NCBI GenBank assembly: GCA_025451535.1
Contig: JANWKE010000022.1
Location: forward strand, 1-56,774
DNA length: 56,774 bases
DNA from: Verrucomicrobiia bacterium
GTDB lineage: Bacteria; Verrucomicrobiota; Verrucomicrobiia; Limisphaerales; UBA11358
Reading direction: 5' to 3'
Below are positions 1 through 34,496 of the stretch, one piece after another. Numbering within the stretch: the stretch's first letter is position 1; each line of letters begins with the position of its first letter. The notes under the pieces were generated by a model. It saw nothing but the letters and a program-made list of their open reading frames with translations, was not told the origin of the DNA and ran no database searches. Both the position numbers and the translations under genes were made by a program.

Positions 1-2151
<2,151 letters not shown>

Positions 2152-7290: not shown

Positions 7291-7342
7291 TGTAGCGGCG
7301 CTCTATGAGCGTCGTTTCCGGCGGTCACAGACCACCGCTACA
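7291..7342. repeat. 52-base palindromic element (REP-like hairpin)
   Basis: Starts TGTAGCGG and ends CCGCTACA. Two 24-base arms pair at 20 positions (one of them G-T) around a TTTC loop. It lies in the gap before the CDGSH gene and has the look of a dispersed chromosomal palindrome, not a terminator, because no T-run follows. Confidence 0.75.
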
Positions 7343-7356
7343 GTCCACAAACTGTT

Positions 7357-16479: not shown

Positions 16480-16554
16480 TCCTTGACGGGGTTCCTGAAA
16501 ACAGGCCGCTGGAAGCCGCCTGAACCCGCAGCCAGGATGGCTGCGCTACGTCGT

Positions 16555-16595
16555 GCAGGCTTCCAGCCTGCGAGTTCTGGCATCTTCCAGATGCC
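16555..16595. repeat. two adjacent short palindromes
   Basis: GCAGGCTTCCAGCCTGC (16555-16571) and GGCATCTTCCAGATGCC (16579-16595) are both perfect palindromes around TTCC. They have the same 'GGC(T/A)...' style as the element inside cysS at 33398-33475. Together with 16336-16479 they fill most of the 392-bp gap 16253-16644. Confidence 0.8.
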
Positions 16596-16644
16596 AGCTT
16601 CTTCAGAGCAGTACTCAGCAAGAACAGTGTCGAGATGCGTCCTG

Positions 16645-32883: not shown

Positions 32884-32910
32884 TTACGATTTAAGATTTA
32901 CGATTTACGC
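32884..32910. repeat. TTTACGATTT direct repeats upstream of tmk
   Basis: Three GATTTA(C/A) units in a row (TTTACGATTTAAGATTTACG). A very similar row (TTTACGATTTCGGATTTACG) occurs at 41527-41558 before sucD. Confidence 0.6.
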
Positions 32911-33044: not shown

Positions 33045-34496
33045 TCAAATCCTTTTCAGTCTCGGACCTTTGGGCGTGTCTTCGATGGCCCAACCTTTCG
33101 CCTTCAATTCGTCGCGAATGGCGTCCGATTTTTTAAAATCTTTGGCTTTGCGAGCCGCTTGGCGAGCCTCAAGCAACGCAATGATTTCAGCTGGAGCTTC
33201 GGCTTCCGCCGGCGTGCCAATGCCTAAAACGGAGTCAATTCTGTCCCATGCGGCCAATGCTCCCGCTGAGTCAGTCGCGCTCAAAGAGTGTTCCGCAATG
33301 CGCCGGTTGGTTTCCCGCACCCATTCAAAAACTGCGCCCCAAGCGGCGGAAATGTTCAAGTCTTCGTCGAGTGAATCACTGAAACGTTGAAGCACTGCCG
33401 GGAGCGCCGGCATCTTGCCGGCAGGTTGGCGTTCTTTCGTTGGTAAACTCGCCGGCTGGAAGCCGGCGCTCCCGGTAATTTCCCGCAGTTTGCCAAGGCA
33501 TTCGTCAATGCGTGCCAGCGCCGTGCGCGCGCCCTGCAAACCTTCGAGGGTAAAGTTGAATGTCTCGCGGTAATGCGCGGTCAGGAGCAAATAACGGATT
33601 TCACGGCCCGTGAATCCTTTGGCCAGCAGATCGCGCAGGGTGAAAAAGTTGCCGAGCGACTTGCTCATCTTTTTGCCTTCGACGAGTAAAAACGCCCCGT
33701 GGAGCCAGTAATTGACAAACGGTTTGCCGGTCGCGCCTTCGCTCTGCGCGATTTCGTCCTCGTGATGCGGAAATTTCAGGTCCTCGCCGCCAAGGTGCAG
33801 ATCAAAACTTTCGCCGAGCATTTTCATGCTCATGGCCGAACATTCGATGTGCCAGCCGGGTCGGCCCTCGCCCCAGGGGCTGGGCCAGAAAACCTCGCCG
33901 TCCTCCGGTACACGCGCCTTCCATAACGCGAAATCGGCAAGCGATTCCTTGTCGTATTCGTCCGCGGCGACGCGGTCGCCGACGCGCAGCTCGTCGAAGT
34001 TGAGCTTGAGCAACCGGCCATAGGTGCAGCCGCAGCCACGGTATTTCTCGATGCTGAAGTAAACTGAGCCGTCGGCGGCTTTGTAAGCGATGCTGCGCGC
34101 GACGAGCTTTTCGATGAGCGCTATGATTTCGGGAATGTATTCCGTCGCATGCGGCATTTGGTGCGGGAGAACGCAATTCAGCGTCTTCAAATCCTCGAGA
34201 AACGCGGCTTCGTATTTGCCGGTGAACTCACGCAGCGCCGTTTTCGTCTCCCGGATGCCTTTGATGATTTTGTCCTCCACGTCGGTGATGTTCATCACGT
34301 GCGTGATGGCGTAGCCCTTGAATTCGAGATAACGGCGGACGAGGTCGGCGAAGACAAAAGTGCGCCAGTTGCCGATGTGCGCGAAGTCATACACGGTCGG
34401 CCCGCAGCAATACATGCCGACCTTTTTTCCGGTGAGGTCGAGCGGCGCGAATTCCTGAATCGAGCGCGAGAGCGTGTTGAACAGTTTCAAAGCCAT
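33045..34496 (-). CDS. cysS: cysteine--tRNA ligase
   Basis: Charges tRNA-Cys with cysteine. 483 residues. The zinc ligand C30 sits in MYCCGPTVYDFAHIGN, which includes the HIGH-like HIGN; the KMSKS loop is near residue 276 and followed by LGNFFTLRDLL; the helical C-terminal part has DEDLNISAAW. Between the helices after residue 340 is a 26-residue segment (GSAGFQPASLPTKERQPAGK..) coded by a perfect-ended 78-bp palindromic element at 33398-33475. The C-terminal end KGWAIEDTPKGPRLKRI is normal. ATG 34496. Confidence 0.96.
   Translation of the reverse strand: MALKLFNTLSRSIQEFAPLDLTGKKVGMYCCGPTVYDFAHIGNWRTFVFADLVRRYLEFKGYAITHVMNITDVEDKIIKGIRETKTALREFTGKYEAAFLEDLKTLNCVLPHQMPHATEYIPEIIALIEKLVARSIAYKAADGSVYFSIEKYRGCGCTYGRLLKLNFDELRVGDRVAADEYDKESLADFALWKARVPEDGEVFWPSPWGEGRPGWHIECSAMSMKMLGESFDLHLGGEDLKFPHHEDEIAQSEGATGKPFVNYWLHGAFLLVEGKKMSKSLGNFFTLRDLLAKGFTGREIRYLLLTAHYRETFNFTLEGLQGARTALARIDECLGKLREITGSAGFQPASLPTKERQPAGKMPALPAVLQRFSDSLDEDLNISAAWGAVFEWVRETNRRIAEHSLSATDSAGALAAWDRIDSVLGIGTPAEAEAPAEIIALLEARQAARKAKDFKKSDAIRDELKAKGWAIEDTPKGPRLKRI
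33398..33475. repeat. 78-bp palindromic element inside cysS
   Basis: Ends CCGGGAGCGCCGGC (33398-33411) and GCCGGCGCTCCCGG (33462-33475) are perfect 14-bp complements, with further CCGGC pairs inside. The length is a multiple of three and the frame stays open. The inner motifs GGCATCTTGCCGG and GGCTGGAAGCC match the palindromes in the gap 16253-16644. Confidence 0.85.

Follow-up and report, generated by a model that had tools for sequence, protein, structure and literature searches.

The window analysed here, a stretch of 56,774 nucleotides taken at its full length, carries cysS (33045..34496, minus strand), which encodes a cysteine--tRNA ligase of 483 aa and is the only CysS found in its genome. 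A palindrome lies in frame within this gene, and the locus raises the question of what class of element it is and how such an element comes to be carried inside an essential enzyme.

The 78-bp palindrome in cysS and its copies in the genome

The element (33398..33475, minus strand) touches codons 341-367 and is situated about 60 residues past the KMSKS motif (residues 276-280). An earlier note had described a 78-bp unit with perfect 14-bp terminal complements in the linker that follows the KMSKS region of an essential gene, and both the unit and its place were confirmed; exactly 14 terminal bases are perfectly complementary, and the unit is in frame with cysS. It resembles two inverted REP hairpins. 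Hairpin 1 (33448..33475, minus strand) has a CCGGGAG head, a CGCCGGCT/AGCCGGCG stem and an AG tail, and hairpin 2 (33398..33425, plus strand), which has the opposite orientation, carries the same head on a GCCGGCA/TGCCGGC stem. On the coding strand of cysS, CCGGGAGCGCCGGCTTCCAGCCGGCGAG is followed by a 22-nt spacer and the opposite arm CCTGCCGGCAAGATGCCGGCGCTCCCGG, both GGGAG heads facing outward, and five of the six frames of the element are open. When folded as single-stranded DNA the element reached -29.9 kcal/mol compared with a shuffle mean of -14.8 (z -6.55), and none of 200 shuffles folded as well. Outside the gene, a short direct repeat, TTTACGATTTAAGATTTACGATTTA, was noticed between tmk and cysS (32884-32910).

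We searched for copies in the genome to which the window belongs (G000; 4.4 Mb in 188 contigs). BLAST returned 62 matches at E<=10, the element itself and both arms included, in agreement with the expectation that copies would be found elsewhere in the genome. A pattern describing the hairpin had 48 sites at up to three mismatches, compared with 5 for the reversed pattern; 11 of the 48 were exact and 9 had one mismatch, giving 20 at one mismatch or fewer. About ten two-armed copies of 72-84 bp, the cysS copy among them, were read from the match lists, and the list of pattern copies also contains GTAG-headed sister hairpins, for example on contigs C57, C75 and C154. The earlier note had likened the inner motifs of the element to palindromes at 16555-16595. 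Three related REP-like hairpins, one with a GTAG head, one with a GTCG head and one with none, do lie together at 16525..16598, apparently between genes and with boundaries drawn by eye, but 16555-16576 gives a weak match (E 0.0999). Elsewhere in the window, the start of an ORF at 7305-7350, MSVVSGGHRPPLQ, may be another repeated palindrome peptide. Fourteen REP places in the genome were taken for reading; they were partly picked for open frames and hence give no estimate of density. At all seven of the places that were run on Pfam, the REP is in frame in a domain-bearing protein: GcvT (within its folate-binding domain), a GH141-type protein, GlnE, Obg, DnaX and an RND pump, and a heavy-metal P-type ATPase that has its REP within the HAD domain.

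One could envisage that the palindrome arose by chance as a low-complexity linker expanded. Linker lengths in 127 distinct CysS sequences do span 36-153 nt, and other repeats, such as AAATCCAAA runs, are found in it. Such an expansion would hardly produce perfect 14-bp ends, a fold z-score as low as that given above, and close copies at 48 sites versus 5; the fold and the genome copies led us to reject a chance origin, which we regard as highly improbable.

The features of the element are those of the GTAG superfamily, namely a short hairpin with an unpaired GGGAG head at both ends, many copies per genome, and inverted doublets with the heads outward. As outlined in the consulted sections of PMC3733652 and PMC2817692, REPs, BIMEs and REPINs share with the cysS element a GTAG-type unpaired head, a hairpin of 20-30 nt, a short tail, inverted head-out dimers and a high copy number, and a Pseudomonas putida REP among those listed there, TGTGGGAGCGGGC-TGCCCGCGAA, resembles the cysS unit. 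The differences concern the stem sequence and the taxon, and the fact that here one enzyme linker holds several repeat families across the order. The same sections of PMC3733652 present GTAG-superfamily REPs, with their unpaired head, hairpin and inverted head-out pairs, as the class served by RAYT transposases. We conclude, with a probability of roughly 0.8, that the cysS element is a REPIN/BIME, a non-autonomous REP doublet of the GTAG-RAYT superfamily, and that whole RAYT units share its niche in frame within linkers.

The earlier note had compared the element to the Rickettsia palindromic elements, and the comparison holds for the lifestyle, that of palindromes tolerated in frame in many proteins, but not for the anatomy, which is that of a GTAG-superfamily REP. 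An element of the Rickettsia type would be a selfish coding-region repeat dependent on an enzyme unrelated to RAYTs. The presence of copies in frame in several proteins is compatible with such an origin, as is the low confidence with which the peptide is modelled (see below), as for an unstructured insert. Against it, the GGGAG/GTAG head, the tail and the inverted pairing are characteristic of REPs, ends with a GGGAGC head are carried by RAYT units of the genus, and the element ends in CCGGGAG and not in a CGTC tag. The intragenic repeats of R. conorii, RPE-4 and RPE-6, are assigned to the CGTC superfamily in the consulted part of PMC3733652, a class listed there without a known dedicated transposase. 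A Rickettsia-type element is thus, in our judgement, an improbable identity for the insert in cysS.

The CysS linker in relatives

If the REPIN is a late arrival in cysS, the gene should lack it in related organisms. A CysS could be identified in 58 of 59 relatives, in 47 of the 49 genomes of the genus and in at least 265 of the 293 genomes of the order sample, and the alignment bore out the prediction that the element is absent from most relatives. An empty cysS site differing by this insert alone was not found among them. The median linker is 51 nt, or 17 residues, and the shortest ones have 12-13 residues. The linker of the window CysS has 28 residues, nearly all of which is the element; the statement that the insert adds about 26 residues therefore has to be corrected to a net gain of about 15-16 over the shortest relative linkers and of 11 over the median.

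In G022, the closest relative (85% identical), the corresponding position of the linker is taken by another palindrome. A comparison of the spacers of the two palindromes, which were cut by eye, gave a p of 0.12 for the similarity that a single insertion might have left. A third palindrome variant, with a GGAGCGCC head, was seen in the linker of G228 (L152), a GTAGGGACGCG hairpin in those of L032, L033, L037 and L172, a GGGGCGGGGACGGC pair in L083 and a TTGGAGTTCA pair in L153. Among the 93 linkers of at least 45 nt that were tested out of the 127, inverted repeats at p<=0.01 in either of two tests were detected in 8, where about 2 were expected; the shuffles behind these tests, like those used for the spacers and for the unit ends described below, preserved single-base content only. 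The palindrome end sequences are of four kinds (GGAGCGCC, GGTAGGG, GGGGCGGGGACGGC and GTTGGAGTTCA). Several unrelated palindromes thus occupy the CysS linker, for which its tolerance of additional residues is the simplest explanation. A AAATCCAAA-type repeat was also observed as linker filling in the CysS of L034, L044, L069 and L148.

An AlphaFold model of the window CysS, built from an alignment of 28 sequences (A2), had a mean pLDDT of 86.7. Residues 350-363 were below 50, and the blocks 341-350 and 351-360 averaged 59 and 42, respectively. The low-confidence stretch lies between helices 317-341 and 367-377. The linker, which is variable in length, is accordingly predicted by the model to be disordered.

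RAYT units within housekeeping proteins

We examined the transposases that might serve the REPs. Seven Y1_Tnp matches are present in the genome, and a scan for hairpins found no GGGAGCGCCGGC hairpin within 1.5 kb of any of the seven; these RAYTs have other ends, and GGGAGC-headed RAYT units were seen in other genomes only. One of the seven matches lies within PriA. The PriA frame of 985 aa (963 from the start codon) encodes, in order, PriA sequence, the hairpin GTAGCACCCGCGTCCCGCGGGT, a RAYT, inverted hairpins ending in CGCGGGTGCTAC, and the PriA helicase. Residues 248-386 match NF047646, the REP-associated tyrosine transposase family, at 76.1 bits (cut-off 80), and PriA parts were recognized on both sides. 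Since only a single place in the genome matches PriA at E<=1e-30, this is apparently its only PriA.

PriA contains a RAYT unit in six genomes of the genus, of one RAYT lineage in G000, G024, G031 and G035 and of another in G018 and G030, and most other full PriA matches in the genus are in frames of about 740-835 aa. Further hosts in the genus, named by BLAST against a host set built for the purpose and by Pfam and NCBIfam, are AlaRS (two sites, A and B, assigned from BLAST coordinates; seven genomes), ThrRS (one), ClpB (three) and a helicase that we call DinG-like from its DEAD and Helicase_C_2 domains (one). At least 15 of the 49 genomes have one or more embedded units. The ClpB place is present in the window (1075..1143, plus strand), where it is empty, and it holds an in-frame RAYT unit in G031, G006 and G014. 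The eight proteins that were scanned scored 58.5-76.5 bits with NF047646, below the cut-off of 80, with E values of 7e-16 to 2e-21. AlaRS site B of G012 (L410) carries about 100 residues that lack the RAYT motif, and the AlaRS of G019 (L287) is unusually long, with a frame of 1243 aa; the AlaRS linkers that hold RAYT units may accept other inserts too.

The RAYT core of the AlaRS type, designated lineage A, was then searched for in 293 genomes of the order. At E<=5e-30 there were 39 matches in 31 genomes, all of them in open frames of 555-1540 aa and none interrupted by a stop within the match. The hosts are AlaRS (30), ThrRS (5) and PriA (4). For 31 of the 39, host sequence precedes and follows the unit in a single frame, another 7 are truncated by a contig end, which means that some of these frames end where the contig does, and in the remaining one, the AlaRS of G037 (L380), the downstream AlaRS part is in frame with the unit and the upstream part is in another frame, owing either to a frame break in the genome or to an assembly error. 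Two units reside in one AlaRS frame, at sites A and B, in G109 (L375), G099 (L376) and G195 (L377). Weaker matches of the search were other RAYTs, both stand-alone and embedded. For lineage B (the ClpB type), 33 of the best 39 matches were in frames of at least 555 aa and the weaker ones mostly in frames of 200-400 aa; among the matches listed, stand-alone genes are frequent in this lineage. The hosts of lineage B include ClpB, DinG-like helicases, PriA, SNF2 helicases and DnaE, and further type I restriction-like helicases, a PglX-like methyltransferase, a UDPGP-domain protein and a NO VEIN-domain helicase. Host frames were read at 60 loci, of which four gave no frame by the motif used. At L344, the SNF2 helicase that hosts a RAYT also matches part of the NCBIfam "intein-prone helicase" family, and embedded RAYTs and inteins may have hosts in common.

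Nearly all of these genomes are fragmentary and probably metagenome-assembled, and the seven units cut by contig ends and the one with an upstream frame break are what errors of assembly or binning might produce. That such errors created the embedded frames is nevertheless hardly credible, given that the same host sites recur in many separate assemblies, that no stop lies within any of the 39 matches, and that G144, a single contig of 4.7 Mb, contains the unit in a frame of 1197 aa with AlaRS on both sides.

The catalytic residues of the embedded enzymes are conserved. Forty distinct lineage A cores were compared, 38 from the 39 matches (one truncated core was left out) and those of G004 and G035, and all 40 keep both His residues, the Tyr and the Asn-Pro that follows it; 35 have Val and 5 have Ala as the middle residue of the HUH motif. 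The dN/dS ratio was 0.165 for G000 and G024, the sole pair with a low dS (0.28). Among the 40 pairs lowest in dN, out of 65 with dS<1.6, the first 19 had ratios of 0.02-0.17 and the remaining pairs 0.15-0.36, dS being close to saturation. No ATG precedes the core in 11 of 12 lineage A units read; GTG and TTG codons are present in some, and translation may start internally at these. Significant inverted ends were detected in 36 of the 37 units with enough flank and not in the remaining one, and three more units had short flanks. Most of the ends are hairpins, as read by eye. A GGAGC head, which the cysS element has as well, is found in 16 of 32 AlaRS and ThrRS units, and the others have GGGTGGAAC, GGGGACC or GGGGAACAC heads.

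These units share with REPtrons and TIRtrons, in which a RAYT (TnpA_REP) gene is bounded by REP or TIR ends, the Y1 HUH core, the similarity to NF047646 (below its cut-off) and the inverted ends. They differ in that the whole unit is in frame within another ORF, as is the case for 39 of 39 strong lineage A matches (frames of at least 555 aa), and in that 11 of 12 lack an ATG upstream of the core. Inteins likewise travel in frame within essential proteins and proteins of replication, and frequently contain a nuclease domain. No intein splicing domain was detected in the Pfam and NCBIfam scans of the proteins with embedded units; the sites examined are in variable linkers, so that splicing, unlike in inteins, would not be needed.

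REPs, embedded units and their inheritance

The AlaRS units of G021, G067 and G013 begin with GGGAGCGCGCCCGCC(C/T)CGGGCGC, which is followed by an inner hairpin with CGCGCCCTCGCG. They share the head GGGAGCGC with the cysS element, and the stem is different. Free REPINs without a transposase are present in G021, where seven of eight pairs are 147 bp long and one is 148 bp; their outer hairpin is the same as that of the AlaRS unit and their inner hairpins are similar. We do not claim that lengths in multiples of three are a coding adaptation of the REPINs in G021, G060 and G064, where 9 of 13 pairs measure 147 or 144 bp and 4 measure 146 or 148 bp. Two REPs with the GGGAGCGC head were observed in frame in other proteins, one in a PurL-like protein with AIR synthase/FGAR-AT domains (L403, G021) and one, a 144-bp pair, in a UvrD-like helicase (L404, G060).

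We compared the abundance of this REP in genomes with and without the units, using a pattern derived from the units of G021, G067, G004 and G013; the unit ends of G026, G060 and G064 are somewhat different. The two groups were known before the counts were made, and the four genomes with lineage A in PriA were placed in the group without AlaRS or ThrRS units. Among the matches listed, the seven genomes with such a unit had 2, 7, 10, 16, 28, 30 and 32 sites (median 16), and the 42 genomes without one had a median of 2 and a range of 0-23. The difference has a p of 0.0002, or 0.002 with the unit ends removed, uncorrected for kinship. Two genomes, again among the matches listed, are contrary to a link between REP and unit: G067 has an AlaRS unit but no tested REP beyond its two unit ends, and G012 has 23 tested REPs but no lineage A match. 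Among the matches listed, the tested pattern occurs at 14 sites in G066; 11 of these have three mismatches, and nearly all of the 11 read CGGAGTGCGCCCGTC(C/T)CGGGCGC. The genome also contains lineage B RAYTs, which possibly form another cognate pair with these sites.

By analogy with the published TnpA_REP, the HUH/Y1 enzymes considered here would cut REP hairpins in single-stranded DNA and rejoin them elsewhere. The head is what links the cysS REPIN to the embedded units; we infer that its ends are cut by a cognate enzyme and that a RAYT of this kind moved it. The cysS copy would then have landed in the length-variable CysRS linker, and what let it survive there would be a length divisible by three, a reading frame free of stops and a linker without structural constraint. 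Whole RAYT units use the same niche in the linkers of AlaRS, ThrRS, PriA, ClpB, DnaE and others, each with a transposase frame that is not interrupted and is bounded by inverted REP-like ends, and, given that these units are in frame, one expects the transposase to be produced as a passenger domain within a housekeeping protein.

The history of the units is mixed. On a tree of the cores, the PriA units form one clade and the ThrRS units another, AlaRS sites A and B are mixed, and host or site changes number 6, compared with 18.1 in shuffles. Identity between RAYTs is unrelated to identity between their hosts (rho 0.06; 253 pairs from 23 genomes, with one unit per genome, a host segment of about 220 residues, and G013 and G067 dropped from 25 for want of host sequence). 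At site B alone rho was 0.02 (153 pairs), and two subclades gave -0.12 and 0.31 (36 pairs each). The AlaRS genes of G141 and G081, which belong to different families in the collection, are 84-90% identical in DNA, yet their site B units are 54% identical in protein and have no matching DNA in that stretch; near-identical AlaRS genes with clearly different units argue that one site received different units. Purely vertical inheritance of the AlaRS units is not supported by the rho values or by this pair, even though host and site are clustered on the tree. Conversely, G064 and G081 are 88% identical in the RAYT and 60% in the host, with a dS of 3.0 for the RAYT and 1.3 for the host; synonymous sites being saturated, higher identity of the RAYT is not by itself evidence of transfer and may partly reflect constraint.

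These data bear on whether the embedded RAYTs are still mobile or have become domesticated, immobile domains of AlaRS, ThrRS and PriA, for example nucleic-acid-binding regulators. Domestication would account for the low dN/dS and for the clustering of host and site on the tree, including the single clades of ThrRS and PriA units, and the excess of RAYT over host identity could be the mark of constraint, with synonymous divergence saturated. It is less easily reconciled with the retention of inverted ends in 36 of 37 units, with the patchy distribution (39 matches in 31 of 293 genomes, at two AlaRS sites and in three host genes), with the G141/G081 pair and the lack of correlation between RAYT and host identity, or with the greater abundance of the tested REP in the seven genomes with AlaRS or ThrRS units (median 16 versus 2, p 0.0002, the genomes not being independent). 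We therefore think domestication rather unlikely, and lean towards the view that lineage A is a line of transposons confined to the interior of essential genes, consisting of a RAYT with REP ends, with no stop of its own and mostly no ATG of its own, carried as a passenger domain of AlaRS, ThrRS or PriA and serving short REPINs, some of which, as in cysS, reside in enzyme linkers. If this is true, the essential host gene supplies the promoter and the start, and loss of the unit by an event that breaks the frame is lethal to the host.

The cysS element joins a well-documented group, that of REPs, REPINs, BIMEs and REPtrons. REPs within genes, chiefly of Opitutus terrae, a verrucomicrobium, and of R. 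conorii, were listed in 2013, according to the consulted part of PMC3733652. Searches of the open-licence literature yielded no description of whole RAYT units embedded in frame in essential genes. A survey of TnpA_Y1 proteins, as the consulted part of PMC6006769 states, discarded unexpectedly long proteins, and surveys that drop these may have lost embedded cases.

Bacterial transposons are usually viewed as lying between genes or breaking them. The transposase family described here appears to solve the opposite problem, with no stop, ends that are read through, and a home in the free linkers of indispensable proteins, and such an embedded lifestyle would help explain the persistence of RAYTs and REPINs. 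The units and REPINs also amount to a naturally occurring inventory of places that tolerate insertions in AlaRS, ThrRS, PriA, ClpB, DnaE and CysRS, and the dual activity of a tRNA synthetase-transposase fusion becomes directly testable.
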